Positions 4,498-36,006 of a DNA stretch of 36,191 nt are shown in pieces. Source of the DNA: Planctomycetota bacterium (GTDB lineage: Bacteria > Planctomycetota > Planctomycetia > Planctomycetales > Planctomycetaceae); NCBI GenBank assembly GCA_022600195.1, contig JAHZKX010000073.1:1-36191 (forward strand). The letters run 5' to 3'. The position numbers and the translations under genes are program-made. Below the pieces are notes generated by a model that was not told the origin of the DNA, did no database searches, and worked only from the letters and a program-made list of their open reading frames with translations. The stretch's first letter is position 1, and every line of letters starts with the position of its first letter.

Positions 4498-7323
4498 TCA
4501 TCTGGGTTGGTCACTAGCTCTCAGCCGCCAGCGTAACAGCAGCTTTTCTGCCTCAACGGCCCAGAACACAACGCTGCTTAATGCAATGCACAATAGAAGT
4601 TCTCCGCCAGTTAAAGCTGTTGTCTTGAGAATACTCTGCAGCGGTGGCCAATAGATCACGGCCAATTGCAAGCCGAAAGTCAACGCCACGGAACCGATCA
4701 GCGCCCGATTTGAGAAGATACCGATTTGAAATAGCGAGTCGTGGGACGAGCGGATGGCCATGGCATTACCCATCTGGGCCAGCGTCAACACCGTGAAAAT
4801 AATTGTCCGCCAATGGGCTTCGGTCTCTGAACCCGAGGCCCAGTACCAGTAACCCATCGACAAAGAGATGATGCCCATCAACAGGCCGATCCAGGCGATG
4901 TCACGTCCCATGCCTCGACCAAAGACGTGTTCCTTCGGCAGATGAGGCGGATGTCGCATCGTATCGAGTTCCGCCTTTTCAAGGGCTAAGGCCAGACCAG
5001 GCAATCCGTCGGTTACCAGATTGATCCACAAAATCTGAAGCGGCAACAAAGGCAGAGGCATACCCATGAGCGGGCCAAGCACCATGACCCAGATTTCTCC
5101 CGCGTTGCTGGTCATCGTGTATTTGATGAACTTACGAATATTGTCATAGGCAATGCGACCTTCCTCAACGGCGTTTACGATCGTAGCAAAGTTGTCGTCA
5201 AGCAGCACCATCTGCGACGCTTCCTTGGCAACGTCGGTGCCAGTGATTCCCATTGCCACACCGATGTGAGCCTGCTTGAGTGCCGGTGCGTCGTTTACGC
5301 CGTCACCGGTCATTGCAACCACTTGACCATTTTCCTGGAGAGCCTGAACCAGTTGCAGTTTATGCTGGGGAGCCACTCGCGCGTATACCGAAGTTGTCTC
5401 GACAGCAACTCGCAACTCATCACCGCTGAGGCATCCCAACTCTTGCGCTGTGAGCGTCTGGCCGTTGTCAGCGATATTCAACTGTTGGGCAATGTGACTG
5501 GCGGTAAGTGGATGGTCGCCGGTAATCATCACCGGACGAATACCTGCTGAACGACAGCGTGTGATGGCCTCGGCAACTTCCGGCCGCGGCGGGTCGATCA
5601 TGCCGAGCATGCCAATGAAGATCAGATCCTGCTCGACCTCTTCCGTGAGACAGATTTTCAACTTATCTGGTTGGCTGTTGGCTGCTGCATCGTTTGACAC
5701 ATTATGCGCGCGAAACGCCACGCCCAACACCCGCATGCCACGGGCGGCCAGATTTTCGTTGGCAGCAGCGATGCGGCGTTGCCAGCCATCATCCATAGGT
5801 TTCAATTCGTCTTTGTCCCAGACATACTGACAGGCATCAAGGAGCGCATCAACGGCGCCTTTGGTAAAAGCAATGTGGTCGCCGACCAGTTGAGCAATGG
5901 CATCGAGTGCTACCCTGACTGGCTCATCGCTGGCGTCATGAGCCGAAGGTGTGACCTGATGAACCGTAGTCATAAGTTTGCGGTCGGAATCGAAAGGTAT
6001 TTCGGCGACGCGAGGGAATAGTGCCAACAAGCGGTCTTTGCGAAGCCCCAAGCGTGCTGCGGCGACGATCAACGCACCTTCGGTGGGATCCCCCACAGCT
6101 CGAAACCTGTGGTGTGCCTCATCCAATTCGAGTTCAGCGTCGTTACACAAACCAGCTCCCAACAGCAGCAACGAAAGCGATGAGTTATCAGCCGCCGTGT
6201 CCCACATCGTAACCTGTTTGTTGGAAACATCGGATTCAGTAAATGGCTGGCCCTTTTGTAATATCTCCGTTAGATCCATCCGGTTACCAGCAACGTCGAG
6301 CACTGTGACCGTCATTCGGTTCTCGGTCAGTGTGCCAGTCTTGTCCGAGCAGATCACAGTGACTGAGCCGAGCGTTTCAACGGCAGGTAGCTTGCGAATC
6401 AAAGCCTTCCGCTTGAACATCCGCCTCGCCCCAAGCGCCAGCGCAACCGTTGCCACGGCTGGTAAGCCTTCGGGCACGACAGCGACAGCCAGGCTGAGTG
6501 CCGTTGTCAACATCAACCGCAGGTCTTCGCCCCGTAGCAGGCCCATCACAAACACCAACGCCACGATCCCGATCGCGGCCAGAGCAAGTGTACGACCAAC
6601 CTGGGCAAGCCGTTTCTGTAGCGGGGTCATTTCGGTTTTGACGGTTTGCAGTGAGCGAGCGATATGACCCAGCTCGGTGTTCATACCAGTTTCCGTCACG
6701 ATAGACTGTCCGTGGCCATATGTCACAATAGTTCCCATGTAGGCCATGTTAGTTCGGTCACCCAACGGCAAGCCATCGCCTTTGAGTGGCTCGTTCTGCT
6801 TTTCGACCGGCTCCGATTCACCGGTCAGTGCCGCCTCTTGAATCTTGAGATTGACAGACTCCAACAAGCGGCAATCGGCCGGCACATAGTTGCCGACTTC
6901 CAAATGCACAATATCACCAGGCACAAGTTCGCAAGCGGACATCTCCCGCACGACACCACTTCGCCAAACTCGCACAACGGGCACCGCCAGCTTCTTGAGT
7001 GCCGCTAACGCCTTTTCGGCCCGATAGTCTTGGATAAATCCCAGTGCTGCATTCAGGACTACGATGGCCAGAATAACAGCGGAGTCGGTGTATTCATGCA
7101 AGAAAGCTGACACTCCTGCTGCCACAATCAATAGGAAGACCATTGCCCCACTGAGTTGCTCCCAAAGAATTCGCCAGGGATCGCGTCCGCCCATTTCCAC
7201 TAATTCATTGAGACCGTATTGAGCGCGACGTACCTCGACCTGGTCGTCAGACAGCCCATTTGTCGCGTGAGAATCAAGCTGGCCTAAGGCGTCTGAACCC
7301 GTCCTTTGATGCCAATTCGTCAC
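4498..7323 (-). CDS. Type IIA (Ca2+-transporting-like) P-type ATPase
   Basis: This is a full-length 941-residue cation pump. It has an N-terminal cation-ATPase domain, an actuator domain with [11 protein letters not shown], the phosphorylation motif [11 protein letters not shown] (Asp near 327), and the hinge [16 protein letters not shown]. Ion-site helices read [10 protein letters not shown] in M4, SNAGEIWV in M5 and [13 protein letters not shown] in M6. The PEGLP, Asn/Glu and Asn/Asp residues are the pattern of SERCA/PMR1-like Ca2+ pumps and of mycobacterial CtpF. It acts in the cytoplasmic membrane and exports a cation at the cost of ATP; Ca2+ is the best guess, with Mn2+ or Na+ possible. 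It is divergent from the hydrogenase operon, with 600 bases between them. Confidence 0.92.
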
Positions 7324-7923
7324 TGGTGTCCCTTCTTCAGACTAGCAGTTGCTGCGAACAAACCAATTGCCTGACCTGCCTCCATTGGTAACACCAGTCA
7401 CATGACATAGTGTCCGGTGATAACAACGGCTATTCTGTGCGTCTGCTGGAGTGAAAAGAAGCATACAAACAGAACAGTTTTCCCTTGGTAACCGTGGCAC
7501 GGTATCCCGGGGAATTGTGTAATCGAATCATATTATAATTCTTCCGTCAATGCTCTCTCAGAATTTTTGTTTCCAATAAAGTATCGTAGTGCTCTCCTTT
7601 GAGCAATTCACCCCACAACATTCCATTGGATGATTCAATGTACTTTTTAGCATTAGTTTAGAGAGGCAACGGTATTTTTCTATCAAATTATCAAACAGAC
7701 TTCATATAAGATGATGTTCTCCCACTCGCATGGGGGAATCCCCTATGCAATATGGTTATTGCCATTTATCGTTTAAATGAAATAAAGAAAAGTACGCGAA
7801 ATTGTTATTAATATTTTCAACAACATACCCGTGATCTCCCAGTCTATAGACGGTATGATTAGTGAAAGATAGAATCAAACAAAGGCAGCAAATCGGTTAC
7901 TTGTACCGGAAAGAGAAACCGTT
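7324..7923. promoter_or_regulatory. 600-base divergent control region between P-type ATPase and hydrogenase operon
   Basis: This is one of the longest gene-free stretches and must carry promoters for both directions. It holds an imperfect palindrome at 7487-7507 (GGTAACCGT / ACGGTATCC around GGC) directly followed by GGGGAAT at 7509-7515. A TATAAT hexamer lies at 7534-7539, a strong palindrome at 7728-7748, and GTCTATAGAC at 7842-7851. Another inverted repeat, CACCAGTCAC / GTGTCCGGTG (8 of 10 paired), sits at 7392-7419 near the ATPase start. No well-spaced -35/-10 pair is evident, which suggests activator-dependent transcription. Confidence 0.5.
7728..7748. promoter_or_regulatory. 21-bp near-perfect palindrome, candidate operator
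   Basis: Arms GCATGGGGGA and TCCCCTATGC around a central A pair at 9 of 10 positions. The site contains GGGGAAT, which recurs in other intergenic regions of this window. It lies about 176 bases upstream of the first gene of the hydrogenase operon. No T-tract follows, so an operator is more likely than a terminator. Confidence 0.45.
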
Positions 7924-8421
7924 ATGGATGTTCAACAGATTCAACAAATCCTGATGAAACTTCGTTTCACATCAGGGTTGTCGGATGAGGATCAACGGAA
8001 CCTGGCGCGTATTTCACATGCTCAAAACTTTCCCAAAGGTGCTACTGTTTTTACAGTGGGAAGCGACCACAAGGATATTTATGTCATCCGAAGCGGGCGG
8101 GTCGAAATTTGTATGAGTATACCCGCTCGTGGTTGCTTACCGGTTCTGACACTTGAAGCAGGTGATCTGGTTGGTTGGTCTTCTATCCTAAAACAGGGGG
8201 AAATGACAGCAACCGTTATAGCTGTGGAAGACACACAAACGATTGCCATTGATGCCGCGAATTTGAGCGAGCTATGCGAACAGGATCATGATATCGGATA
8301 TCAAATCATGCGACGGGTTGCCACCGCACTTTCACAACGGCTCGTAGCCAGCCGATTGCAGGTGCTCGACATGTTTGGCGATGTCAATTCGAATAACAGC
8401 CAGATCGGGGCATCGGAATGA
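7924..8421 (+). CDS. Cyclic-nucleotide-binding-domain protein without DNA-binding domain
   Basis: The 165-residue protein is a single CAP-family effector domain: beta-roll from about residue 15 with FPKGATVFTVGS and IYVIRSGRVEI, and a phosphate-binding-cassette region GDLVGWSSILKQGEMTATV at about 80-98. It ends with a dimer-helix-like segment and has no helix-turn-helix. Typical cassettes have a Glu after the first Gly-Glu turn and an Arg before Thr-Ala-Thr-Val; here those places carry Val-Gly-Trp and Met, so cAMP binding is doubtful. Its stop overlaps the next start (ATGA at 8418-8421), making it the first gene of the hydrogenase operon. It may regulate the enzyme allosterically or sense another ligand; this is inference. 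Confidence 0.85.
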   Translation: MDVQQIQQILMKLRFTSGLSDEDQRNLARISHAQNFPKGATVFTVGSDHKDIYVIRSGRVEICMSIPARGCLPVLTLEAGDLVGWSSILKQGEMTATVIAVEDTQTIAIDAANLSELCEQDHDIGYQIMRRVATALSQRLVASRLQVLDMFGDVNSNNSQIGASE

Positions 8422-9542
8422 GCGAAGGACTTCAGGCTGCAAATGCCCCTCCTTGTTTTCTTTCAAAAGAGCAGTTTGCGAAACTATTCAAAGTCTTACG
8501 CGCTTTGGAGTACGATGTCATTGGCCCTACGATTGATCAGGAAGCCATTGTCTATGATCGTATTTCCTCGATTGATGATTTACCCCGCGGTTGGACTGAC
8601 ATTCAGGAACCTGGAAAATATCGCTTAGAGAAACGCAACGATGATGCATTATTCGGGTATGTCGTCGGGCCACATTCCTGGAAGCAAAATCTCTTTCCCC
8701 CGGTAACCACACTCTCGGTTGCTGATCGGACTGACGAAGGCTGGCAGTTTTCCGAACCGGAACAGGATGCACCAAAGTTCGCATTTTTGGGCGTACGCGC
8801 ATGTGAACTGGCGGCGCTCAAAATTCAGGATCGCGTATTTCTGGAAGGCCCTTATATTGATCCCCAATATCAGGGACGCCGAAATCAGGCACTGGTCATC
8901 GCAGTGAATTGCACGCAGGCCGCATCGACCTGTTTCTGCACTTCGATGAAAACAGGCCCGCGTTGCAAGGCGGGTTATGATCTGGCACTTACGGAGCTAC
9001 CAGAGGGCTTTGTTGTTGAGGTGGTCACCCCACAAGGCGAAGCGGTCATCAATGCTCTGGAAACTCAGATCGCAACAGAGGAAAATCAAAACCAGGCAGA
9101 AGCCGCGCGGCAACAGGCGGTCGACCAGATTACACGCACGATGGATACGACGGATATTCGTGACTTATTAATGTCGAATCTGGAACATCCGCAGTGGGAT
9201 GATGTCGCGGAGAGGTGTTTGTCCTGTACCAACTGCACGATGGTTTGTCCGACCTGCTTTTGCAGTTCTGTTGAGGAAGTAAGCGACCTCACCGGAGATC
9301 ATGTTGAAAGAGAGCGTCAGTGGGATTCGTGCTTTAATGTTGATTTCAGTTATATGAACGGCGGTCTCGTGCGAAATAGTATTCGCAATCGTTATCGTCA
9401 ATGGATGACTCATAAGTTGGCCACATGGATTGACCAATTCGGGACGTCCGGTTGTGTCGGATGCGGTCGTTGCATCACATGGTGTCCCGTCGGGATTGAT
9501 CTGACGCAGGAAGTCGCCGCCATTCGGGAAAAACAGACATGA
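8418..9542 (+). CDS. hydB: Group 3b [NiFe] hydrogenase beta subunit, iron-sulfur protein
   Basis: This subunit passes electrons between the hydrogenase core and the flavin subunit in the cytoplasm. Two C-terminal ferredoxin-type [4Fe-4S] motifs are visible: [12 protein letters not shown] followed by CFC, and [15 protein letters not shown] further cysteine group, [19 protein letters not shown], lies in the middle near residues 160-180, as in the sulfhydrogenase beta family. At 374 residues it is of normal length. The start ATG overlaps the stop of the upstream gene by four bases, and its own stop overlaps the gamma start in the same way, so translation is coupled. Family HydB/HyhB; the sulfur-reducing activity known in archaeal relatives is not implied here. 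Confidence 0.92.
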
Positions 9543-10411
9543 ATTCGTCATGCGCAACGGGAGAAACCAGCAATGCACAACCCAATCCCTGGGTGCCGCA
9601 GACCGCACGCATTCGTGAGATCACTCCCGAAGTGGATAACGTAGCGACCTATCATCTGACGCTGGTTGATCCTGCTGCAGCGAATGCGTACCACTTTCAA
9701 CCCGGACAGTTCAATATGTTGTATGTACCGGGCGCAGGCGAGTCGGCAATCTCAATGAGCGGCGATCCGGACTCACCGGAAACTCTGGCTCATACGATTC
9801 GGCTTGCTGGAAATGTAACGAAAAGTATCTCCGAGATGAAAGTCGGGGATACACTGGGATTGAGGGGCCCCTTTGGTACCAGTTGGCCATTGGAAGCCTG
9901 TAAGGGACGCGATGTCATTTTGGTCGCAGGAGGCATTGGATTACCACCACTGCGACCACTCATTTATCGTCTACTTGCAGAACGGCAGCAATATGGTCGA
10001 CTGCATTTGCTCTATGGTGCACGCTCACCCGATATGAGATTATACACAGCAGAGCGTTCGCTCTGGTCCGAAAGAGGTCTGGAATTAAAAGAAACCGTGG
10101 ATCGCTCAAACCCTGGCTGGCTCGGTAATGTGGGAGTGGTTCCCTTGTTGCTGGAACGTTTGGAATCGTTCGAACCCAAACAGACAACGATGATGATTTG
10201 CGGGCCAGAACTCATGATGCGATTCACCGCCAGAACGGCAATGCAGCGCGGAATGACTGCCGAACAAATTTGGGTCTCCACAGAACGAAATATGCAATGT
10301 GCTGTCGGTTTGTGTGGACATTGTCAGTTGGGGCCAGAATTTATTTGCAAGGACGGACCAATTTTTCGCTACGATCAGATTTCACCTTATTTTAAAGTGG
10401 AAGGACTGTAA
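9539..10411 (+). CDS. hydG: Group 3b [NiFe] hydrogenase gamma subunit, FAD/NAD(P)-binding
   Basis: This is the diaphorase subunit, which exchanges electrons with NAD(P)H. The FAD domain has [13 protein letters not shown] and a SMSGDP segment. The nucleotide domain has [20 protein letters not shown], and the C-terminus carries the [2Fe-2S] ligands [12 protein letters not shown] plus a distal Cys before KDGPIF. At 290 residues it matches the ferredoxin-reductase-like gamma subunits of group 3b enzymes (relatives of dihydroorotate dehydrogenase PyrK). It overlaps hydB by ATGA, and the delta gene follows after two bases. NADP versus NAD preference cannot be decided by eye. Confidence 0.92.
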
Positions 10412-10413
10412 TC

Positions 10414-11202
10414 GTGGAAAAACCAAAACTCGGTGTGTTCAAATTTGCTTCCTGTGATGGCTGTCAGTTATCATTGCTTGATGCGGAAGATCAGCTGTTG
10501 GCGGTTGCCGGAGCAGTTGATATTGTACATTTTCCCGAAGCCAGCAGCCGAATCGAATCAGGGCCCTACGACATAGCCCTCATCGAAGGTTCGATAACAA
10601 CGCCACACGATGCAGAGCGAATTCAGCAGATCCGCCGTGACTCGAAGTTTTTGATGACAATAGGCGCCTGTGCGACCGCAGGTGGCATCCAGGCACTACG
10701 CAACGGAGCCGATACCGACGAATTCATGCGCGCCGTCTATGCGACTCCTGAATACATTCAGGTGTTAAACAAATCAACGCCCATTGCAGAACATGTGAAA
10801 GTGGATTTCGAATTACGTGGTTGTCCGATCAATCAGTATCAGTTAATCGAAGTTATCCAGTCATTATTGGCAGGCCGAAATCCGCGAACACCCAAACATA
10901 GCGTCTGCCTGGATTGTAAACGCCGTGGAACCGTCTGCGTGACCGTGGCTCAGGGAACCGCCTGCCTGGGGCCTGTCACACAGTCTGGCTGTGAAGCAAT
11001 TTGCCCGAGCTATAATCGGGGATGTTATGGCTGTTATGGTCCTGCACCGCAGCCCAATCTGGTGAGTCTGAGCACACATTCGCTCAAAGAAGGAACTTCC
11101 CCGGCAGAGATGGCACACAGTCTGCAAAACTTTAACGTGCATGCACCTGCCTTTCACAATGAAAGCCAGCGGTTGACAGATCAGATCGAGGAGCAAAACT
11201 GA
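10414..11202 (+). CDS. hydD: Group 3b [NiFe] hydrogenase delta (small) subunit
   Basis: This electron-transfer small subunit holds the proximal and further [4Fe-4S] clusters. It starts with GTG at 10414, two bases after the gamma stop. Seen motifs are [11 protein letters not shown] (Cys14, Cys17), GACATAGG with its Cys, RGCP, and a Cys-rich C-terminus with [20 protein letters not shown] and GCYGCYGP. There is no twin-arginine signal, so the enzyme is cytoplasmic, as in all group 3 hydrogenases. The length of 262 residues is typical. Its stop codon shares one base with the large-subunit start (TGATG). Confidence 0.93.
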
Positions 11203-12494
11203 TGGGCAACCGTACGATCAAAGTCGAAACATTAACGCGCGTGGAAGGAGAAGGAGGTCTTTATATTCGTTTGAGTGGGGATGCTGTTACTGAAGTCCGC
11301 TTGGAAATTTATGAACCGCCGCGCCTGTTCGAAGCCTTGCTCCGAGGACGACCTCTGGAAGATACTCCAGATATCACCGCGCGCATCTGTGGAATTTGCC
11401 CCGTTGCTTACCAGATGAGTAGTGTGCATGCACTGGAAGCAGCTCTGGGAGTGACCGTTTCACCAGAGATTCGTCGTCTGCGGCGGTTACTCTATTGCGG
11501 TGAATGGATTGAAAGTCACGGTTTACATATGCACTTGTTGCATGCACCCGATTTCCTGGGCTTCGATAGTGGACTGGAAATGGCGAAACAGTTTCCGGAC
11601 GAAGTGAATCGGGGACTGCGATTGAAGAAACATGGCAATCAGTTGGTTGATATGCTGGGAGGCCGGGCCATTCATCCTGTCAATGTTTGCGTTGGTGGGT
11701 TTTATCGGTTCCCAAAAAGGAAAGAACTCCAAAAATTGATTCCCGACTTTGAGTGGGGACTGGAAGCAGCAGTTGAGACCACACGTTGGATTGCCCGTTT
11801 TGAATTTCCTGATTTCAAAACCGATTGTGAATACATCGCACTTTCACATCCCGATGAATATCCGATGAATGAAGGAGTCATGAAAACCAGCAGTGGTGAT
11901 TTGGTCGATGTAAGCAATTATGAGTCAGAATTTGAAGAACGACAGGTTCCGCATTCGACGGCACTGCATGCGATTCGAAAGTCAACGGGACGTCCCTATT
12001 TGCTGGGCCCCCTGGCGCGAGTGAATCTCAATCGGGAAAAACTTTCTCCCACCGCACAAAAAATCGCTGACGAAATAGGGCTGGAGTCTTTGTGTCGCAA
12101 TCCACACAAGGCGATTATTGCGCGAGGACTGGAGTTGATTCATGCTTTTGAAGAAGCCTTAATGATCCTGCGAGATGAACCACCAAAAGGCAAATCGCGT
12201 GAGTCATACGAGTACCAAGCTGGTACGGGGATGTCTGCCACCGAAGCACCCCGTGGAACGCTCTTTCATCGATATGTTGTGGATGAAAATGGCAAGATCA
12301 TTGAAGCGTGTATCATTCCTCCGACTTCACAGAATCAAGCTCAGATTGAAGCGGATCTGAAACGATGGATCAAACATGTCATCAGCGACAACGAACAGGA
12401 AACGGCTCGAAAATGTGAAAACCTGGTACGTGCATATGATCCTTGTATCAGTTGTTCAACTCATTTCCTGAAAGTAAAAATTGAACGCACTTAA
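11202..12494 (+). CDS. hydA: Group 3b [NiFe] hydrogenase alpha (large, catalytic) subunit
   Basis: This subunit carries the NiFe(CN)2CO site that oxidises or evolves H2. The N-terminal ligand motif RICGICPVAYQMSSVHA gives Cys63 and Cys66; the C-terminal motif DPCISCSTH gives Cys415 and Cys418. The nine residues after His421 (FLKVKIERT) are the expected C-terminal extension removed by the maturation protease encoded next. At 430 residues it is in the group 3b range. It lacks the longer sequences of group 1 or 4 enzymes, and no membrane-subunit or proton-pump genes are nearby. All active-site residues appear intact, so the enzyme should be functional. Confidence 0.95.
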   Translation: MGNRTIKVETLTRVEGEGGLYIRLSGDAVTEVRLEIYEPPRLFEALLRGRPLEDTPDITARICGICPVAYQMSSVHALEAALGVTVSPEIRRLRRLLYCGEWIESHGLHMHLLHAPDFLGFDSGLEMAKQFPDEVNRGLRLKKHGNQLVDMLGGRAIHPVNVCVGGFYRFPKRKELQKLIPDFEWGLEAAVETTRWIARFEFPDFKTDCEYIALSHPDEYPMNEGVMKTSSGDLVDVSNYESEFEERQVPHSTALHAIRKSTGRPYLLGPLARVNLNREKLSPTAQKIADEIGLESLCRNPHKAIIARGLELIHAFEEALMILRDEPPKGKSRESYEYQAGTGMSATEAPRGTLFHRYVVDENGKIIEACIIPPTSQNQAQIEADLKRWIKHVISDNEQETARKCENLVRAYDPCISCSTHFLKVKIERT

Positions 12495-12519
12495 TTCAAG
12501 CTACGAAAGCATCATTGAC

Positions 12520-13002
12520 ATGACGCATCCCTCTCAGGTCTTAATTGCTGGCATCGGCAGTCCTCACGGAGATGATCAGGTCGGATGGGAGACGGTGAAA
12601 CAGATTCAAAACATGGGCAGTGACCTGGTTTCTACCCATCTGGCTCGGACCCCCGATGATTTACTGGATTGCATGGAAGGGTTTAGACTGTTGGTGATTT
12701 GTGATGCCTGTCAAGGTGCAGGAGATGTGGGTAGTTCTCATCACTGGGAATGGCCTTGCAACCAACTTGAATCCATCAACTGGTCGGGAACCCATAATGT
12801 TTCGTTACCTGCAGTACTTGCATTGGCCGAGCAACTGGGCAGACTTCCTGCAGCGGTTCACATCTGGGGGGTCGAAGTGGAACAGGTCCTTCCCGGACAT
12901 CCCATGTCCGAACGAGTTTTGGCAGGAGCAGCTTCAGTAGCGCAGGCGATTTGTAAGGAATTGTCGATTCCCATGAAAACAGCGGGGACACAACATGCAT
13001 GA
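12520..13002 (+). CDS. Hydrogenase maturation endopeptidase (HycI/HyaD/HoxW family)
   Basis: This protease removes the C-terminal extension of the large subunit after nickel insertion. The family signature is present: GIGSPHGDDQVGWE near the N-terminus with the nickel-sensing acidic residue, CDAC in the middle, and SGTHNVSLPAVLALAEQLG with the conserved His. I place the start at the ATG at 12520, just before THPSQVLIAGIG; an upstream in-frame TTG at 12481 would overlap hydA but adds a non-conserved tail. The gene sits directly after its presumed substrate and overlaps hypA by eight bases. Confidence 0.88.
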   Translation: MTHPSQVLIAGIGSPHGDDQVGWETVKQIQNMGSDLVSTHLARTPDDLLDCMEGFRLLVICDACQGAGDVGSSHHWEWPCNQLESINWSGTHNVSLPAVLALAEQLGRLPAAVHIWGVEVEQVLPGHPMSERVLAGAASVAQAICKELSIPMKTAGTQHA

Positions 13003-13366
13003 ACGGTCTCTGGTCCAGAACTTATTACGGCAGGTAGAACAAATTGTCGCTGCAGAGGGTGGCGGAGTTGTTTCCGAAATTCGTGTGCAGGCCGGAGACT
13101 TGTCCGGAGTGGAACCACTCTTATTTCAGATGGCATTTGATGACATGGTTCCTGCTGTATTCTCTGCAGACTGTCAATTGACGCTCGAGGTAGTACCCGT
13201 CACCGCGGTTTGCAGCGAATGTGATCACAAGTTTGAAATTATTGATTTTCAGTTTCGTTGTCCTGCCTGCCAGGCAGGATCGGTGCAGGTCATACAGGGA
13301 GATGAAGTGAAGTTGATCAGCGTCACTCTCAATTCAAATCATACACGGGAAGGAGTCACATCATGA
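12995..13366 (+). CDS. hypA: Hydrogenase nickel-insertion accessory protein HypA
   Basis: HypA delivers Ni2+ to the hydrogenase large subunit together with HypB. The N-terminal MHE with the nickel ligand His2 is present, and the structural zinc site is formed by CSEC (Cys73, Cys76) and CPAC (Cys89, Cys92). At 123 residues it is near the family's usual 113-120. Overlaps with both neighbours (8 bases upstream, ATGA downstream) indicate translational coupling. Confidence 0.95.
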   Translation: MHERSLVQNLLRQVEQIVAAEGGGVVSEIRVQAGDLSGVEPLLFQMAFDDMVPAVFSADCQLTLEVVPVTAVCSECDHKFEIIDFQFRCPACQAGSVQVIQGDEVKLISVTLNSNHTREGVTS

Positions 13367-20362: not shown

Positions 20363-20367
20363 CTGAT

Positions 20368-21900: not shown

Positions 21901-21951
21901 ACTTTCACTCTCAATCGTATTTCATCAATCTGATTTGATGAATTCAAATTT

Positions 21952-22749: not shown

Positions 22750-22779
22750 TAATCGATCCTATGTTCTCGTTCGAGTTGG

Positions 22780-23058: not shown

Positions 23059-23074
23059 AGAGAACTTCCTCTTT

Positions 23075-24857: not shown

Positions 24858-24858
<1 letters not shown>
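24463..24858 (-). CDS. atpC: N-type ATPase epsilon subunit
   Basis: This small rotor subunit of F1 can inhibit ATP hydrolysis. The N-terminal beta-sandwich shows the hallmark GENGSFCLLPKHVDFISALLPGIL (given here only as a pattern around residues 25-48: GxxGxFxxLPxHxxFxxxLxPG), followed by a C-terminal helical pair. I use the ATG at 24858, which shares a base with the atpD stop; the codon before it is a TTG that could also be read. The 131-residue length is normal. Confidence 0.9.
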
Positions 24859-26381
<1,523 letters not shown>

Positions 26382-26463
26382 CATGAGTATGAAATTTCAA
26401 AATCGTTTCTTTTTCGATACCGGACAGCAACCATGCATGGGACCAGTCACCCGGCTAATGGTT

Positions 26464-26486
26464 TTCCCCATACAGACACAGGGGTT
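26464..26486. promoter_or_regulatory. Candidate operator TTCCCC-N11-GGGGTT
   Basis: CCCC and GGGG are separated by exactly 11 bases, the same arrangement as in the site before the histidine kinase gene (31383-31405). The site lies 206 bases from atpD and 228 from ppsA. See the finding on the shared motif. Confidence 0.4.
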
Positions 26487-29197: not shown

Positions 29198-29671
29198 ATG
29201 AACAACAATGTGAATCCTCATAAACATTTACAGTTTTTGTTAGATGAGCACGAAAAAATCATTTCGCATATAAGGGAACTGAAGGATTGGTGGGACCAAC
29301 TCAATGAAAAAGGATTACCTAAATTTGAGGAGATGGGAACACGGGTGAAGGGCTTTCGTGATCTGTTAGCGAAGCACTTTGTCGATGAAGAACAGGAAGG
29401 ATACTTTAAGCCAGTATTTGATGAGGCTCCTGGATTTTGTATCATGGTGCCCGACTTCAAAAAAACGCATGCTGAGATTTTATGTCGTATGGATGATTTC
29501 ATTACACAATTGAAAGAAACAGAGCATCCTTTCCAGAGCTGGGGTGAAGCATTACAGAAACTTGAAGAGATACTGGCTGATCTTCGAAAACACGAAGATC
29601 AGGAAATTAAAATGGTTCAGCAAGCATTCAACCAGTCTGTCTCAAAAAAGGCAGACATCCAAAATCAGTGA
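29198..29671 (+). CDS. Hemerythrin-like (HHE) protein
   Basis: This 157-residue four-helix-bundle protein has the di-iron ligand pattern His18 (DEHEKI), His60 and Glu64 (KHFVDEEQ), His91 (KTHAEI) and His132/Glu136 (KHEDQE). Such domains bind O2, NO or act in iron and redox sensing. It is a stand-alone domain with no fused signalling module. The gene has an AAAGGAG ribosome site upstream and probably shares the ppsA transcript. Its role in low-oxygen physiology is inferred from context. Confidence 0.85.
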   Translation: MNNNVNPHKHLQFLLDEHEKIISHIRELKDWWDQLNEKGLPKFEEMGTRVKGFRDLLAKHFVDEEQEGYFKPVFDEAPGFCIMVPDFKKTHAEILCRMDDFITQLKETEHPFQSWGEALQKLEEILADLRKHEDQEIKMVQQAFNQSVSKKADIQNQ

Positions 29672-29819
29672 TTTTCTTTGAAACTGTCATGGCTGATAAC
29701 CGCACCAGGTATTTCCTTTCAGTCGGTGTTTTGAAGAGATATCCTGTCCTCTCATCTTCAGGTACAGCAGGTTCCGAATTCAGAAAAATTAGGACCTCAG
29801 TCGAATCAGTGATATCGCT

Positions 29820-31346
29820 TCATACCTTATCATCGAGAGCTTTAGATTCTTCTGAATCGGTAGGTGCAATCATCCGTGCAATTGTTCCATTACCATTAGA
29901 AGATTCCAACCAAAATTTGCCTTTGATAAGTGATAAGCGAAACTCGATGTTACTGAGACCGATTCCACTGGCTTCTGAGAGCTGTTTATCAAGCTGCCGG
30001 GGATCAAAGCCGATTCCTTCATCGGAGACGACGATTTCAATTTTCTGCTCGGAAACGAGACTCATTCGGACCTCTGCCTGAGCTGTTTGAGAATGCTTGA
30101 CGACATTAAATAATAACTCGCGGATACATTCATATAACACAATATTTGTCAGCTCATTGGAAGAGTTAGCACGACGATCAAGATCCAGCGTGACGGTTAA
30201 GTTATATCGTTCTTTCATATTGTGGGAGAGCCACTCCAGAGCGGTTGCCAATCCTTCTTCGTGTAGTACCACCGGATTTAACTCTGCCGTTAATGACCGT
30301 GTCAGTTCGATGCCTTGATTCAGCAGTTCATCCGCACGTTCCAGAGTCTGTTTGATAGCTTCTTCGGGAGTATCTTTTTTTGCAATTTCCAAATGGATGC
30401 GAACGCCAACCAGTAACTGTTGCAGATGATCATGCAGAAGATTCGCCAGTTGACGACGTTCCTGTTGTCCTGCAATTGCAATGGCTCTGGTCAATTCTTT
30501 CTGTTTTTGTTCTGCCTGTTTGCGTTCACTAATGTCGGCTATAATTCCAGCAAAGACACCAAATTGAGGCAGATCGGTGACTGAGAGTTCAATCGGGAAG
30601 ATGGTTCCGTCACGACGGCAACCATTCAGTTCACGCCGGGCTCCCACAGTATCTGAGATACCCGTTTCCAGATAGTGGGAGATGTACTGATCATGTTGTT
30701 CTCGAGTGGGAGAACGGGTAAGTAAACTGACGTTTTTATTGATGATTTCACTCGCAGAATAGCCAAACATTTTCTCGGCCGCCCGATTGAAAGATTGGAC
30801 CAATCCTCTTCGGTCGATTGTGATTACTCCCTCAATAGCCGTTTCTACGATCGCTTTGAGTTGTGCCTGTGTTTGACGTAATTCACTTGAGATGGTCTGA
30901 TTTTGAAGAATGCGCTTTAATGAGGATCGAAATAATTCCGGATCGATGGGTTTCACAAAATAGTCAGCAATCTCATTGCGAAAAGCAATGACCATATTCT
31001 CAATTCTGGATTGTGAAGTGATAATCAACAACTCTGCATCGGGCGCCAGTTTTTGTAGCCTGGGGAGAAGCTCATCTGTTCTTCCGTCGGGCAGTTCGTG
31101 TTCGAGAATGATTAGAAAATAATCAGACCAGTTATCACGGTCCATCATCTGAGTAATCGTTTCCGCTGTATCAATGCGATAATTTTCACTCGAGAGGATC
31201 TGTATGATCTGTGAACGTGATTCCGGATCTGCTTCTACCAGTAAAACGGGTAAGCCCTGTACATCGCGCATGACGCTCATCTCATTTCTGAATGTGGTTT
31301 CCAGTAGGGTATCCTTGATCCCAAAAGCATCCTTGAACATAACCAT
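29820..31346 (-). CDS. PAS-domain histidine kinase (HisKA_3 type) with degenerate receiver domain
   Basis: Domains in order are a receiver-like domain (about 31-150), a PAS domain (about 160-285, with AIVETAIEGVITIDRRG and MFGYSASEIINKN), a HisKA_3 dimerisation helix with the phosphorylatable His near 305 in RRQLANLLHDHLQQLL, and a HATPase_c domain with ELLFNVVKHS, SDEGIGFDP and GIGLSNIEFRL. This kinase class pairs with NarL/FixJ-type regulators such as the one at 34203. In the receiver the usual phospho-accepting Asp is Glu82 and the acidic pair reads Glu-Ala, so it is probably not phosphorylated. No membrane helix is seen, so it is cytosolic. Starts at 31346, 31340 or 31280 are possible; none has a strong ribosome site. 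Confidence 0.92.
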   Translation of the reverse strand: MVMFKDAFGIKDTLLETTFRNEMSVMRDVQGLPVLLVEADPESRSQIIQILSSENYRIDTAETITQMMDRDNWSDYFLIILEHELPDGRTDELLPRLQKLAPDAELLIITSQSRIENMVIAFRNEIADYFVKPIDPELFRSSLKRILQNQTISSELRQTQAQLKAIVETAIEGVITIDRRGLVQSFNRAAEKMFGYSASEIINKNVSLLTRSPTREQHDQYISHYLETGISDTVGARRELNGCRRDGTIFPIELSVTDLPQFGVFAGIIADISERKQAEQKQKELTRAIAIAGQQERRQLANLLHDHLQQLLVGVRIHLEIAKKDTPEEAIKQTLERADELLNQGIELTRSLTAELNPVVLHEEGLATALEWLSHNMKERYNLTVTLDLDRRANSSNELTNIVLYECIRELLFNVVKHSQTAQAEVRMSLVSEQKIEIVVSDEGIGFDPRQLDKQLSEASGIGLSNIEFRLSLIKGKFWLESSNGNGTIARMIAPTDSEESKALDDKV

Positions 31347-31697
31347 TGGCTGTGACTAAGTAAATGCCGGAGGGAGTGTCGTTTCCCCAGATAGTACCTG
31401 GGGAATTTCCCTATCAAAGATTGGTCAGATTTCCGATTTTCGAAGCAGTATGCGTTTAGTAATATAGTACACAACGAAACATTCATTATTCCAAAGCGCC
31501 GTGATGATTTTGGTTGAGAACTAATATATGCGTTTTAACACAAAATAACGGCAAATTTCACAATGAGAGTCGGATTATGGAGATGGCACATTGAGGGGAA
31601 TATCAGTGTGAATGAGTCTTGTGACCATCAATTGACAGGGATGTTTTTTGAGATGGTTTGGTTCAGATAAAAACTCTCTTTTCAGGAAGTCAAGCTG
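31347..31697. promoter_or_regulatory. 351-base divergent control region (kinase / csrA group)
   Basis: No gene is seen. It contains the perfect inverted repeat at 31383-31405 close to the kinase start and a GGGGAAT at 31595-31601. A TTGACA at 31632-31637 could be a -35 for the rightward genes, but no good -10 stands 16-18 bases after it. Confidence 0.5.
31383..31405. promoter_or_regulatory. Perfect inverted repeat TTCCCCAG-N7-CTGGGGAA
   Basis: Both 8-base arms are perfectly complementary, and the right arm is followed by T, giving GGGGAAT. It lies 37-59 bases before the kinase ATG on its upstream side, a likely place for a repressor or autoregulator. The same CCCC-N11-GGGG layout occurs at 26464-26486. 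Confidence 0.5.
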
Positions 31698-32000
31698 ATG
31701 AAAACCACAGAAAAATGGCCTGTTTCAAAGAATAGGCAGGCTTCTGCCCGAATTCAGAATAAAGTGGCGCGGGCAGAGCAGGAAGATGCGTTAGATCAAA
31801 CGCTGATCGCTGATTTGTCGAATGAACAAATCCATCAGATGACACATGAGGAATTAGCACGAGTAATTCGGGCTGCCAAACTGGATTTTTTGGATCTGGA
31901 TGGCCGACTCAGGGTCAACCATTTTGAACGGAACACATTGGAACGACTGGCATATTTAGCACGTTTTTGTTGTCAGAATCAGATGTCGCGTACATTCTAA
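31698..32000 (+). CDS. Small hypothetical protein upstream of csrA
   Basis: The product is 100 residues, soluble and highly charged, with a basic N-terminus (SKNRQASARIQNKVARAEQ) and a helical acidic middle containing LSNEQIHQMTHEELARVIRAAKLDFL. It ends near a Cys pair in RFCCQNQ. I recognise no domain. It lies 16 bases before csrA and is very probably co-transcribed with it. A role connected with CsrA is only a guess from position. Confidence 0.7.
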   Translation: MKTTEKWPVSKNRQASARIQNKVARAEQEDALDQTLIADLSNEQIHQMTHEELARVIRAAKLDFLDLDGRLRVNHFERNTLERLAYLARFCCQNQMSRTF

Positions 32001-32229: not shown

Positions 32230-32270
32230 ATGGCACTTTACTGGTCGATTTCGTTGTTCTTATCAGGAGT

Positions 32271-32294
32271 TTCCCGAGATGGATGCAAGGGGAA
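32271..32294. promoter_or_regulatory. Imperfect version of the shared motif upstream of hsp20
   Basis: TTCCCG and GGGGAA are separated by 12 bases, one more than at the two clean sites. The GGGGAATCC here is identical to the one before the hydrogenase operon (7733-7741). It lies about 220 bases upstream of hsp20. Confidence 0.3.
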
Positions 32295-32511: not shown

Positions 32512-33000
32512 ATGACCGTTGCACAAGCCGTTAAAGGAACAGTTGCTAGACCAGATCAATCATTAGTCAAGTCTGGTCCATTTGGGAGCCGGGCACCATT
32601 TTGGGTGCTTCGTAATGAGATGGACAATTTGCTGAGCCATTTTTCCGGCGACGGGGGGCTAACGCATGCTTTTGATGCGGTGCTCGACATGTCGGAAACC
32701 GACCATGAGATCGAAGTGCGGATGGATGTTCCCGGTATTCAACCTGAAGAGATCGAAGTCGAGGTGACCGGAAATACCTTGATCATCACGGGAGAACGAA
32801 AAGAAGAGAAAGAGGAAAAAGGCAGAACCTACCATAGGATTGAACGAACGAGTGGCAGTTTTTCCCGATCGATGACACTTCCCTGTGAAGTGGATCGTGA
32901 TCAGGTTCAGGCTCTATGTGACAATGGTGTTTTAACGATTACCTTACCCAAATCGAATTTAAGTAAGGCACATAAAATTACTGTCAAACCTAAATTCTAA
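32512..33000 (+). CDS. Hsp20 family small heat-shock protein
   Basis: The 162-residue protein has a short N-terminal arm (with FWVLRNEMDNLLSHF), an alpha-crystallin domain from about residue 52 (MSETDHEIEVRMDVPGIQPEEIEVEV, described only in part: DVPG and TGERKEE blocks) to 155, and the hallmark GVLTITLPK. It is an ATP-independent holdase that binds unfolding proteins. The ribosome site is AAGGAG eight bases before the ATG. A strong terminator follows the gene. Similar proteins are the main hypoxia-induced chaperones of mycobacteria (HspX). Confidence 0.94.
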   Translation: MTVAQAVKGTVARPDQSLVKSGPFGSRAPFWVLRNEMDNLLSHFSGDGGLTHAFDAVLDMSETDHEIEVRMDVPGIQPEEIEVEVTGNTLIITGERKEEKEEKGRTYHRIERTSGSFSRSMTLPCEVDRDQVQALCDNGVLTITLPKSNLSKAHKITVKPKF

Positions 33001-33107: not shown

Positions 33108-33380
33108 ATGGTGGACCTGCAAAAAGAGCCGAGAATCGTTTTGCCTCCCAATCCAGACAATCAACTCATCGCAAGGATCAGGCGGGTTCTACGATCATCG
33201 GGGTATGCTGCCTTGTCTCAAATCCGGGTTTCAGTAGAACAAGGAAACGTGCGCCTTGAAGGGCAGATTCCTACTTATTTCTTAAAGCAGGTTGCCCAGA
33301 CTCAGGTCCTGGCCTTGGAAGAAGTCCGATTCGTGAGTAATCATTTGATTGTTGAAGACCATTGCAATAACCATTTGTAA
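33108..33380 (+). CDS. BON-domain protein
   Basis: The 90-residue protein has a BON-like pattern: an initial helix (NQLIARIRRVLRSSGY), the strand IRVSVEQGNVRLEGQIP, a helix YFLKQVAQTQVLAL and the closing strand EVRFVSNHLIVED. BON domains are usually periplasmic or membrane-associated and often linked to stress survival. No signal peptide is seen, so this one is probably cytosolic. A very strong ribosome site (AAGGAGGAGA) precedes the ATG. It lies after the hsp20 terminator, so it needs read-through or its own promoter. Confidence 0.8.
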   Translation: MVDLQKEPRIVLPPNPDNQLIARIRRVLRSSGYAALSQIRVSVEQGNVRLEGQIPTYFLKQVAQTQVLALEEVRFVSNHLIVEDHCNNHL

Positions 33381-33572: not shown

Positions 33573-33929
33573 TTATTTCTCTGGTGAATTCAATTCGGAG
33601 GGACCATGCGCGATGGGGAGTCGTGCAGCGTTCCAATCGATTTTTCCTGGTTCATAATCGTAGACACTTTGGTATCCCAGTTTCAGGAGCCACTGGACTG
33701 CCTGCTCTGAAATCTTACATTCAAAATTCAAACTGTAGACAATGATGGTTTGATTTTTATCGGGGATTTCTTTCTGGATTTGTTCTTCAAACCGATCGCC
33801 CAGCGGAACATTGATGGCTCCTCGTAAATGAAACTCGCGATAAGCGATTTCAGGTAGAACTTCGACAAGTTTCAGATTAGGGCACGACGCCAGGAGCCCT
33901 TGTAACTCATTCCTGCTGATGGTCACCAT
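33573..33929 (-). CDS. Rhodanese-like protein with altered active site
   Basis: The 118-residue single rhodanese domain shows LVEVLPEIAYREFHLRGAINVP, then IIVYSLNFECKISEQA, and LGYQSVYDYEPGKIDW. The usual active-site Cys after VY is Ser66 here; a second Cys (Cys71) lies five residues on, a spacing seen in a rhodanese subgroup that has both cysteines. It may therefore use Cys71, or be a non-catalytic binding protein. The gene is leftward and isolated between the BON and response-regulator genes. Confidence 0.8.
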   Translation of the reverse strand: MVTISRNELQGLLASCPNLKLVEVLPEIAYREFHLRGAINVPLGDRFEEQIQKEIPDKNQTIIVYSLNFECKISEQAVQWLLKLGYQSVYDYEPGKIDWNAARLPIAHGPSELNSPEK

Positions 33930-34202
33930 CGCCTCAACCTTGTGCTAATATGGCAGTCTGCTTTGGCTTCAATTCATTTTTTACACCGATTAAGAAATTA
34001 CAGAATGCCGAGAAAACTAAAGCTATTTTAATTCAATCAACAAATAGAGCACTATCAGGTCATAACTTAAAAGTTCTGGGGCAAAATTCTCAAGCTGCCA
34101 TCGGGGATTTTCCTAGTGGCAAAGTGATTCTGAATTGATATTTTGGTTGAGACAGGGTTTGCTGAAACTTTCTTTCATGCGAAGTCAGGCAGAGTAGCGT
34201 GT
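33930..34202. other. Intergenic region, no gene seen
   Basis: These 273 bases separate two leftward genes, the rhodanese-like gene and the response regulator. The sequence is AT-rich in part. Neither a recognisable promoter nor a strong terminator is visible. Confidence 0.5.
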
Positions 34203-34868
34203 TCAGCTTTTTTCCAGAACCCATTGGATCGCATGTCGAGTCAATGCGGTCGCATTTTCCAGATTCAGCTTGTGTTTGATATTTTCCCGATAGGTTTCCA
34301 CAGTTTTGGGGCTCAGGTTCAATTTATCAGCAATTTGGCGTGTGGTTTCGCCTTCACCAATTTGCTCGAAGACTTCCAGCTCGCGGTCTGAGAGACTTTC
34401 GATGGGCGATTGGTCTGTGTAATTGTCTGAACCGATAGAGCGGCAGATCATGCGCTCTGTAACCGCAGAACTAAGAAACACTTTTCCTTCCAGAACCCGG
34501 TAAATAGCTTTAATCAATTGCTCTGGGGCCTGCTGTTTGTTGACATATCCCAAAGCCCCCGCACGAATCGATCGCTCGGCAAACAGAACTTCATCATGCA
34601 TTGAGACCGTCAACATTTTAATCTGCTTGAATTGGGATTTAATATCCTTGATCAGCTCCAGGCCACTGCCATCTTTCAGGGATATGTCAACAATAATGAG
34701 ATCAGGAGGATCATTCATGATTTGCTTGATAGCATCGACTTTACTGTCTGCTTCAGAGCAGACTTCCAGGTCTTCTTGCCGCTCAATCAATCGCGAATAT
34801 CCTTCCCTGACGATGGGGTGATCATCCACAATCATGACACGCGTCTTTTGCTGATTTGATTGACTCAT
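34203..34868 (-). CDS. NarL/FixJ-family response regulator
   Basis: The receiver domain has acidic residues Asp15/Asp16 in VMIVDDHPIVREG, the phospho-accepting Asp61 in IIVDISLKDGSG, and a conserved Lys in YVNKQQAP. The LuxR-type helix-turn-helix reads LSDRELEVFEQIGEGETTRQIADKL (in part: GETTRQIADKL) and SPKTVETYRENIKHKL. It should bind DNA as a phosphorylated dimer. I prefer ATG 34868 or 34871, since AAAGG sits 6-9 bases before them but directly abuts the longer start at 34877. The HisKA_3 kinase at 29820-31346 is its likely partner. Confidence 0.93.
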   Translation of the reverse strand: MSQSNQQKTRVMIVDDHPIVREGYSRLIERQEDLEVCSEADSKVDAIKQIMNDPPDLIIVDISLKDGSGLELIKDIKSQFKQIKMLTVSMHDEVLFAERSIRAGALGYVNKQQAPEQLIKAIYRVLEGKVFLSSAVTERMICRSIGSDNYTDQSPIESLSDRELEVFEQIGEGETTRQIADKLNLSPKTVETYRENIKHKLNLENATALTRHAIQWVLEKS

Positions 34869-34877
34869 CATTATCAT

Positions 34878-35637
34878 CCTTTAATCCATCTTACTTACAT
34901 CATGGCTATCTACCTGACGGATACGTAATCCAGAGATTAGGTCGCATGTCGCGTCTTTTGCACTGCGCCAGCTCTCAATTATACAATCAGACATCGTTGT
35001 CTGATAGGAGTACGCTGAGTTTGGAGCCCTGCTCTGGTAAATCAAGCTTGGGGGTTGGGCCACAGAGAATCTGAGTCCAGTTTTTATTGCTCAACATATT
35101 GGTGTCGGTATTCTATCTAGTTGTCGTGGAAGGGATGCTATCAGAGACTCAAGCCGTGCGATTCAAAAAGTGTTTTGACAAAAAATCCGTTTCAGGATTA
35201 CACATCGCAGCTAATCTCAAGCACTTAAAACTGTCTCACACCATTATTCGTATCTTCCAACCAGAACAGAATGATTACGAATCAGTCACAGAAACCTCGG
35301 ATCATACCTGATACCACGAAAAGCTATAAATTCTTCGTGTACGCACGACGTCCGTTTTATGGGTCGTATACTGCACTCTGTCGAAACTCGTACGGAAAAT
35401 GACAACTGACTCCATAGCTACTTATCTATCTATTTCTCGAAAAACAGGACTTAAAGGTCCGGTTTGATTGACCTTTGTGGTCGCAATATCCAATATGAAT
35501 ATAGGTGATCTTGGAACCAAAAGTGCCTCTGGAAATTCAATCCGTGGCGTGGCCGATCGGCAAGTTTCAGTGCCAGGGTCATCATAAGAGGTACACAGCT
35601 GCCGGGGTCACGTTCAGCTCGAGAAGGAGAGAGAACT
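34878..35637. other. 760-base region without a convincing gene
   Basis: It contains the perfect hairpin at 34986-35005 and presumably the promoters of the response regulator (leftward) and the globin gene (rightward). A weak rightward frame, 35135-35311 (58 codons from ATG), has no ribosome site or recognisable feature and I do not call it a gene. The region may hide a small RNA. Confidence 0.5.
34986..35005. promoter_or_regulatory. Perfect inverted repeat upstream of the response regulator
   Basis: ATCAGACA and TGTCTGAT are perfectly complementary around TCGT, 118-137 bases upstream of the response-regulator start. The compact symmetry suits an operator; no T-tract is present. Confidence 0.4.
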
Positions 35638-36006
35638 ATGGCAGAAAATTTATTTGAGCGAATCGGTGGCACAGACACTATCAATGCAGCAGTGGATGCT
35701 CACTATGTAGCGATACTTGCTGATGATCGAGTGAAAGAGTATTTCGATGGTGTAGACATGGCTAAGTTGGCGACGAACCAAAAGGCATTCCTGGCCAGGG
35801 AATTTGGTGGTCCCGATAATTATGCAGGGCAGGAAATGCGACCATCCCATCTGCAATTCGTGTCACGCGGATTGAGCGATTCCCATGTGGATGCATTCAT
35901 CGAAATTATACTTGGAGCATTTCGGGCACAGGGAGTTGACGATTCACTGCTCAATGAAATTAAGGAAATCTTGGAAGGCCATCGTAAGGACGTATTAGAG
36001 AGGTAA
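35638..36006 (+). CDS. glbN: Truncated hemoglobin, group I
   Basis: The 122-residue two-on-two globin begins with NLFERIGGTDTINAAVDAHY. Tyr23 is at the B10 position, which stabilises bound O2. FGGPDNYAG and MRPSHLQF supply the Gly-Gly turn and the proximal heme ligand His71. Group I globins bind O2 tightly and oxidise NO to nitrate. The ribosome site GAAGGAGAGAG lies just upstream of the ATG. A perfect hairpin follows the gene. It closes the low-oxygen gene set of the window. Confidence 0.92.
   Translation: MAENLFERIGGTDTINAAVDAHYVAILADDRVKEYFDGVDMAKLATNQKAFLAREFGGPDNYAGQEMRPSHLQFVSRGLSDSHVDAFIEIILGAFRAQGVDDSLLNEIKEILEGHRKDVLER

Follow-up and report, generated by a model that had tools for sequence, protein, structure and literature searches.

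The genes lying between approximately positions 7700 and 34900 of a 36,191-bp stretch of Gimesia DNA probably form a low-oxygen regulon of this genus, as judged from sequence comparisons. The stretch, hereafter the window, is the entire contig C17 (ending at position 36191) of a 6.58-Mb draft genome. The block in question comprises a NiFe hydrogenase operon with its maturation genes, an alternative ATPase (N-ATPase), a gene for a phosphoenolpyruvate (PEP) synthase-like protein (ppsA) and genes for hemerythrin, Hsp20, BON and CsrA-like proteins, together with those for a HisKA_3 sensor kinase and a NarL-type response regulator. Co-regulation of these genes by a heme sensor, probably of O2, is well supported in silico. 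What is new here is a predicted shared 15-bp operator, the palindrome TNGGGRNWNYCCCNA, and a FixL-like PAS domain with putative heme-pocket residues in the kinase.

A predicted palindromic operator shared within the window

The palindrome was first sighted in intergenic DNA, as TGGGGGAATCCCCTAT upstream of the hydrogenase operon and as TGGGGAATTTCCCTAT upstream of the kinase gene; the exact form TGGGG-N5-CCCTAT occurs in four copies in the genome, two of which are within the window. Two matrices were used for the search. The five best window matches of matrix A, compiled from 31 sites of which none comes from the window, are at 7731, 31399, 34101, 32263 and 26456 (operators 1, 2, 4, 3 and 5 in Table 1), each of them intergenic, and the sixth falls inside ppsA. 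Matrix B was trained on 21 sites at the hydrogenase and the kinase, including the two of the window, but not on operators 3, 4 and 5. The same positions were scored at 26.9 (7731), 25.0 (31399), 14.5 (34101), 13.6 (32263) and 13.0 (26456), followed by a sixth match of 8.3 within a gene. Intergenic DNA accounts for 5,036 of the 36,191 bp of the window (14%). As a background, other Gimesia DNA (363,672 bp, central sites removed) gave two matches scoring at least 12.9, and one of them was intergenic (54,208 intergenic bp).

Operator 5 departs from TNGGG-N5-CCCNA by two mismatches. It should be noted that the mismatch-tolerant patterns used early matched the window about as often as chance predicts (9 seen versus 5.6 expected, and 26 versus 23.5); the informative signal is solely the exact palindrome form and its conservation. 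Downstream of operator 1, the element CTATAGACGG may act as a promoter, and CTATAGACG was found in nine of the ten aligned hydrogenase upstream regions, being altered in G373.

Conservation of the palindrome in Gimesia

All ten Gimesia genomes have the box upstream of the hydrogenase, and all 11 kinase loci of the genus have it upstream of the kinase. In the first six genomes, it is the palindrome, rather than a fixed sequence, that is conserved at the hydrogenase (6/6). Four later genomes (G358, G373, G377 and G417), with five kinase loci and four hydrogenase loci, were kept as a hold-out, and the strict form was found at every one of them (5/5 and 4/4, respectively). Moreover, the box columns of the hydrogenase promoter reach a mean pairwise identity of 81%, versus 51% over the remainder of the 300 bp. 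An additional open reading frame (ORF) without a Pfam match separates the box from the kinase gene in one G377 copy.

The remaining intervals were compared with shuffled sequences, p ≤ 0.0034 corresponding to at most 1 of 300 shuffles. A site at this level was observed in the rhodanese/regulator interval of all ten loci having this interval, and in the csrA/hsp20 interval of six of nine loci (p was 0.053 and 0.10 in two others and 0.47 in G417). Between the N-ATPase genes and ppsA, the element TAATGGTTTYCCCYA is found in nine of ten genomes, with the variant TGGTGGTTTCCCCTA in G373.

When the six Gimesia genomes were searched for TNGGGRNWNYCCCNA, 64 sites were obtained, 52 of them outside the stretches already examined; 14 of these 52 are intergenic, including five upstream of the kinase in the unlinked locus. 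A dispersed regulon of DosR size is unsupported, since only one of the eight strict sites that the window genome has outside the contig is intergenic according to the ORF caller. A second csrA gene of this genome is preceded at 65 bp by a strict palindrome, TTGGGACTGTCCCAA (C6:117871-117885), which is concealed in an over-long ORF call and emerges after trimming.

Similar sequences were also noted at other genes. A palindrome, TTGGGGTATCCCCGA (TCGGGGAATCCCCAA in G181), precedes the S15/PNPase genes (rpsO) in three Gimesia (L070, L082 and L099) and may be the site of another regulator or an RNA element, and candidate boxes were seen at an aminotransferase gene (L064, L075). An 83-amino-acid family, ferritin-like by source annotation and with 259 relatives, has strict boxes directly upstream in G048, G069, G291, G181 and G377 (for example L067:3123-3374 and L078:3122-3373). 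Its genes are upstream of the hydrogenase in G291, G181 and G377, and their neighbours are hsp20, a second regulator copy, PCMT, CBS or alcohol dehydrogenase genes. The family was not found in the window genome, and there is no box in the 3.2 kb around its relative in G257. In several Gimesia (L007:4948-6153; G291), a baeRF-family release-factor-like gene separates the second regulator copy from the hydrogenase operon.

The sensor kinase and the neighbouring regulator

The PAS domain of the kinase matches the heme-PAS structures of FixL with an E value of 5e-25. His218 aligns with the proximal histidine of FixL and Arg238 with the distal arginine, at chain positions 199 and 219, which we take to be H200 and R220 of B. 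japonicum FixL, one off in numbering. The distal arginine has a role in the FixL heme pocket; the kinase core of FixL is HisKA, unlike the HisKA_3 of Gimesia, and its targets are nitrogen-fixation or respiration genes. According to the available part of PMC10765370, the proximal histidine (His194/His200) is the heme ligand of FixL. The Gimesia pair resembles FixL/FixJ in having a predicted heme-PAS domain with the same ligand histidine and a NarL/FixJ-type output regulator. Both residues are conserved in 10 of the 11 Gimesia kinases, as well as in the kinases near the G205 and G121 hydrogenases. The exception is the second-copy kinase of G377 (L108, C1:464000-474000), in which the histidine is replaced by tyrosine; the regulator beside it starts at residue 56 of its relative and carries one in-frame stop, and this second locus is apparently a decaying duplicate. 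Overall, the kinase is a probable heme-PAS low-oxygen sensor, with predicted heme binding.

The best relatives of the regulator in the PDB are DevR (3c3w, E 5.5e-27) and NarL (1a04, E 8.5e-27), which are nearly equal. Each of the ten Gimesia genomes searched encodes a close relative of the regulator at a distance of ~3 kb or less from the kinase.

Two loci joined in one genome

In our phylum sample of 294 genomes, 78 have a relative of the hydrogenase alpha subunit at E 1e-30. The order of cyclic nucleotide (cNMP)-binding protein, hydrogenase, hyp genes, CBS, N-ATPase, ppsA and hemerythrin is conserved in five other Gimesia of the sample, and that of the hydrogenase half also in four additional Gimesia genomes, in which our simple ORF caller overlooked some small genes (it also over-extends 5' ends). 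Relatives of the kinase at E 1e-60 were found in 10 of the 148 genomes of the class, every one of them Gimesia. The kinase locus (kinase, 100-amino-acid gene, csrA, hsp20, BON, rhodanese and regulator) has all its parts in 8 of 11 loci. It is without hsp20 in G227 and without the 100-amino-acid gene and csrA in G373, where hsp20 is on the opposite side; in the kinase locus of G377 that is listed first, rhodanese is missing and the regulator is the one with the late start and the in-frame stop.

The hydrogenase half and the kinase half are apart in the other nine Gimesia genomes, by at least 0.9 Mb in the seven single-contig genomes and on separate contigs in G358 and G417; among the ten, they are fused in the window genome only. 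A misassembly via a repeat is not indicated, because the stretch at the join (29560-29960) matches nothing else in the genome strongly (the next best is 22 bases, E 0.03). The block would be composed of two loci, separate in relatives, that are fused in this genome, an arrangement so far unique and seen on a single draft contig. A preliminary description, made from the window sequence, had presented one contiguous stretch; this holds on the draft contig, with no repeat at the join, but not for the nine other Gimesia, in which the halves are unlinked.

The same description had counted the P-type ATPase gene (ctpF) and the truncated globin gene as members of the block. Both are best read as neighbours: neither has a box of its own (p 0.27 for the gdsl/ctpF interval and 0.78 for the regulator/globin interval, matrix B), and neither was found in 545 kb of Gimesia stretches around both loci, except for a 41% identical ATPase in G417, the globin test being partial in that several kinase-locus stretches end at the regulator or a few kb beyond. 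Operator 1 also precedes ctpF, by 408 bp, and could act on this gene too. The matrix B interval test gave no boxes for the BON, hemerythrin and CBS genes. The proposed common regulation is retained for most genes of the block, with five predicted shared operators, but not for ctpF and globin. In a G417 stretch (L123, G417:C18:20000-30000), another FixL-like heme-PAS HisKA_3 kinase and a NarL-type regulator are encoded beside a P-type ATPase that is 41% identical to the window ctpF.

Gene content of the window

Genes were identified by Pfam scans of the window proteins, and by NCBIfam models for selected subunits and CsrA (Table 1). Every part named in the preliminary description is present, by Pfam for all except CsrA; the latter is a 70-amino-acid ORF scoring 60–61 bits with the NCBIfam CsrA models, under their cut-offs of 70–73.

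For the hydrogenase, the NCBIfam models that match best are those of NAD(P)-dependent sulfhydrogenase subunits (alpha, beta and delta) and of cytochrome-c3 hydrogenase gamma (gamma subunit), every score being under its cut-off, and the predicted enzyme is consistent with a group 3b, four-subunit NAD(P)-linked sulfhydrogenase type. Among the maturation proteins, HycI falls slightly short in Pfam (21.7 bits versus a cut-off of 23). No helix-turn-helix (HTH) domain was found by the Pfam scan in the cNMP-binding protein.

The available text of PMC4154653 gives as hallmarks of N-ATPases the presence of AtpR, the lack of a separate F1 delta gene and a long b subunit, with the gene order beta-epsilon-I-R-a-c-b-alpha-gamma. 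AtpR, this gene order and a long b subunit (265 amino acids, with a weak OSCP match in Pfam) are all found in the window operon, and its c subunit exceeds the cut-off of the 'alternate F1F0 ATPase' model TIGR03322. The two-CBS gene shares the strand of the N-ATPase genes, follows them after 83 bp and is syntenic in Gimesia. Downstream of ppsA, the hemerythrin gene is found in the window and in nine other Gimesia genomes, and the 100-amino-acid gene adjoins the kinase gene at every Gimesia locus except that of G373 (10 of 11).

Further neighbours in the window are rhodanese, adenylate kinase and GDSL-lipase genes. A 347-amino-acid ORF (1828-2871, minus strand) has a C-terminal adenylate kinase domain preceded by ~130 residues without a Pfam family, and its start codon may be misplaced. 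Neither Rfam families (at the gathering threshold) nor tRNAs were found in scans of the window.

Table 1. Predicted operators, promoter-like element and genes of the window (aa, amino acids).
Feature	Position	Strand	Sequence or basis	Remark
Operator 1	7731..7745		TGGGGGAATCCCCTA	179 bp upstream of cNMP/hydrogenase start codon
Promoter-like element	7844..7853	+	CTATAGACGG	downstream of operator 1
Operator 2	31399..31413		TGGGGAATTTCCCTA	53 bp upstream of kinase, before divergent 100-aa gene/csrA
Operator 3	32263..32277		TCAGGAGTTTCCCGA	upstream of hsp20 (csrA/hsp20 interval); 4th best window match
Operator 4	34101..34115		TCGGGGATTTTCCTA	172 bp upstream of rhodanese gene; 3rd best window match
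Operator 5	26456..26470		TAATGGTTTTCCCCA	between divergent N-ATPase and ppsA; 5th best, p=0.003
P-type ATPase (ctpF)	4498-7323	-	Pfam	
cNMP-binding-domain protein	7924-8421	+	PF00027 alone	opens hydrogenase operon
NiFe hydrogenase subunits beta, gamma, delta, alpha	8418-12494	+	Pfam	group 3b-like
Maturation genes hycI, hypA, hypB, hypF, hypC, hypD, hypE	12481-18823	+	Pfam	
Two-CBS protein	18888-19394	-	PF00571 x2	
N-ATPase operon atpD-C-Q-R-B-E-F-A-G	19478-26312	-	Pfam incl. AtpR (PF12966)	
PpsA, phosphoenolpyruvate synthase-like	26714-29137	+	Pfam	
Hemerythrin-domain protein	29198-29671	+	PF01814	
Sensor kinase REC-PAS-HisKA_3-HATPase	29820-31346	-	Pfam	
100-aa protein	31698-32000	+	no Pfam match	upstream of csrA
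CsrA-like RNA-binding regulator, 70 aa	32017-32229	+	ORF; NCBIfam CsrA models best	
Hsp20	32512-33000	+	PF00011	
BON-domain protein	33108-33380	+	PF04972	
Rhodanese-domain protein	33573-33929	-	PF00581	
NarL/GerE (NarL/FixJ-type) response regulator	34203-34877	-	Pfam	proposed operator binder
Truncated globin	35638-36006	+	Pfam	

Relatives beyond the genus

We examined 80 hydrogenase loci (3.5–21 kb each), which are the best 80 of at least 578 confirmed, belong to mixed phyla and are in part from Planctomycetota. Neighbours were searched by single-sequence tblastn within up to 10 kb, a search that distant relatives can escape. The cNMP protein accompanies the hydrogenase in 60 of these 80 loci, and the other genes were rare: ctpF was found at one locus, Hsp20 at two, ppsA at four, N-ATPase at one, the regulator at one and the kinase at none. 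The portable low-oxygen island suggested in the preliminary description is absent near these 80 loci, and the conservation of neighbourhood that it called for is seen as synteny of each half within Gimesia but not at these 80 loci. The sole N-ATPase case among the 80 is a Trueperaceae locus (L169, JASBUK010000136.1), in which N-ATPase genes lie within 10 kb of the related hydrogenase and AtpD is 74% identical.

The recognition helix carries the same residues in two regulators of G257, a genome of the same family and another genus. Of its 12 strict boxes, three fall within a 5-kb region surrounding one of the regulator copies, where a gene for a Na/Ca exchanger and unknown genes are nearby, and a looser box adjoins the second copy.

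In f2, a different family within the class, the hydrogenase was found at E 1e-100 in 21 of 60 genomes, and 13 of these 21 loci (24–40 kb each) were compared. A comparable gene set was observed at two of the 13, G205 and G121, with ppsA, hydrogenase, P-type ATPase, alcohol dehydrogenase, regulator, kinase and Hsp20 in a different order; G205 additionally has csrA and N-ATPase genes, and Hsp20 of G121 is slightly outside the compared stretch. The other loci have Hsp20 and ppsA (G472), a P-type ATPase (G438), Hsp20 and a distant kinase (G415), a distant kinase (G433), a reductase (G440) or a distant dehydrogenase (G442), and five have nothing. In 20 control stretches of 20 kb each, there was no ctpF, Hsp20, kinase, regulator or ppsA; csrA was found in two and a distant sulfatase in four. 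No strict box was found in 60 kb of either G205 or G121, their regulators have a recognition helix that differs from that of Gimesia, and a reading by eye of their intergenic regions for another motif gave no firm result.

Discussion

In the regulon that we propose, the heme of the PAS domain would bind O2, and loss of O2 would release the HisKA_3 kinase, which would phosphorylate the adjoining NarL-type regulator. A dimer of the phosphorylated regulator would then bind TNGGGRNWNYCCCNA and activate the kinase gene itself, csrA, hsp20-BON and rhodanese, as well as the hydrogenase and maturation genes, the N-ATPase (perhaps with CBS) and ppsA-hemerythrin. During O2 shortage, the outputs would be the disposal of reductant as H2, control of the ion gradient by the second ATPase, the rebuilding of PEP and the protection of proteins.

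Several observations weigh against such a regulon. The regulator and the box are linked by neighbourhood alone, and the PAS domain of the kinase could sense CO, NO or redox. The phospho-Asp position of the receiver domain in the kinase is occupied by Glu82 and, because this residue is Glu in 11/11 Gimesia kinases, the receiver probably does not accept phosphate. Two of the operators, 3 and 5, are weak, their matrix A scores (12.2 and 9.5) being close to the best of shuffled windows (mean 10.5), and orthologous sites are non-independent draws. Among the 52 newly examined sites, 38 are inside ORFs, as called with over-extended 5' ends. In G257, two of the three boxes are inside called ORFs and a third regulator copy has no box in 10 kb; likewise, no box was found in the 14 kb examined for a regulator relative (52%) in G283. 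Finally, the 64 sites of the six Gimesia genomes compare with 23 for reversed-pattern controls, but the values are 97 and 44 in eleven other genomes of the family. Because the ratio is similar in these non-Gimesia genomes, the genome-wide enrichment was rejected as proof of a large regulon.

These counts, by which Gimesia does not clearly exceed other genera, and the linkage of the two halves in one genome only would also be expected if the genes had accumulated side by side and the palindrome were a chance or compositional motif. We regard this as improbable, in that the palindromic form is kept in 10/10 hydrogenase and 11/11 kinase loci, stands out by its identity in the hydrogenase promoter, and a matrix built from two promoters finds three more sites in the block at a local p of ~0.003 or less. 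A regulon that is real but answers to redox, NO, CO or general stress, or whose box is bound by another regulator, is unlikely, even though heme-PAS domains can respond to other gases, Hsp20, CsrA and rhodanese are general stress genes, and the regulator is tied to the box by position. The FixL pocket residues are compatible with O2 binding, hydrogenase, hemerythrin and ppsA suit a low-oxygen physiology, a CRP/FNR-like box occurs at chance level (2 seen versus 2.9 expected), and the cNMP protein is devoid of a Pfam HTH. The presence of csrA in the block, and the short stem that the box could form, would fit an action in RNA, such as a hairpin read by CsrA; against this, position 2 and its partner are often unpaired (TAGGG...CCCGA, TGGGG...CCCGA) and the hydrogenase box lies ~100 bp upstream of the conserved promoter-like element, and we consider such an action most improbable.

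We give little credence to the block being the DosR/OsdR system proper, spread horizontally between Actinobacteria and Planctomycetota, although an equal function set is described for msmeg_3926-3955 of M. smegmatis (PMC2799521, available part) and the predicted targets of OsdR include alcohol dehydrogenase, pyruvate phosphate dikinase and universal stress proteins (USPs) (PMC5069765, available part). DevR 3c3w is the top solved relative of the regulator, but NarL is an equally good one. The DosR operator has the consensus TTSGGGACTWWAGTCCCSAA, for which the window contains no match within 3 mismatches, and its core GGGACT-N2-AGTCCC is at chance level (8 seen versus 10.7 expected). DosS and DosT sense through a GAF heme domain, unlike the Gimesia kinase, which shares HisKA_3 with DosS but has a FixL-like PAS sensor; OsdR is a NarL-type regulator. 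No USP is encoded on the window contig, the seven USP-domain matches being in five places on other contigs, and the best box score in these five stretches is 9.6, inside a gene, and otherwise at most 6.4. Moreover, no such island was found near the best 80 of 578 mixed-phyla hydrogenases. The parallel with a DosR regulon drawn in the preliminary description is kept for the function set, the common regulation of most of the block and the probable low-oxygen sensor; membership in DosR is unsupported in view of the operator sequence, the USPs and the sensor domain.

The low-oxygen regulon proposed here would follow a DosR-like logic that was separately built, working like DosR rather than belonging to it. 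It is about an even call whether Gimesia built this O2-controlled regulon apart from DosR, arriving at identical outputs (NAD(P)-linked hydrogenase, PEP synthase, Hsp20 and CBS) by means of a FixL-type heme kinase with a dead receiver, a NarL-type regulator and a new operator, and with an N-ATPase target that would work chiefly when O2 is exhausted. The parallel with M. smegmatis is stronger than first claimed: as far as the available text of PMC2799521 goes, the low-O2 cluster msmeg_3926-3955, beside DevR/DevS, contains not only a NiFe hydrogenase but also a cation P-type ATPase, a PEP synthase and Dos-regulon homologues, and is induced at low O2. The core output set is thus already published for mycobacteria. 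Gimesia differs by its FixL-type PAS sensor, degenerate receiver, operator GGG-N5-CCC and lack of a USP in the block; it adds the N-ATPase, hemerythrin, CsrA and BON, and its P-type ATPase is not conserved in the block.

Other systems share some of these features. The Streptomyces coelicolor OsdR box AGGGCCGATCGGCCCT (GGG-N8-CCC) lies upstream of the regulator's own gene, and OsdR/OsdK resembles the Gimesia system in this and in having a predicted PEP/pyruvate enzyme target; the half-site and spacing differ, OsdR has USP targets, and the word hydrogenase is absent from the available text (PMC5069765). The lxa locus of Burkholderia cenocepacia is likewise a large low-oxygen cluster with heat-shock protein, BON and regulatory genes, but it has 50 genes with six USPs and is likened by gene content alone (PMC6127331, available part). 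NreB/NreC of Staphylococcus is an O2-responsive two-component system whose regulator binds a GC-rich palindrome, as proposed here, whereas NreB is an Fe-S sensor and the targets are those of nitrate respiration (PMC8139620, available part).

We found no paper combining the words Planctomycete, DosR and hydrogenase, and no title on an oxygen-sensing regulon in Planctomycetes among the matches listed, subscription papers being outside the search. If the proposed regulon is true, a sensor, a regulator, an operator and a list of targets would be named in culturable bacteria, and the N-ATPase, whose role is poorly known, would be tied to a physiological signal. The same low-oxygen output set would then be placed under different sensors in different phyla.

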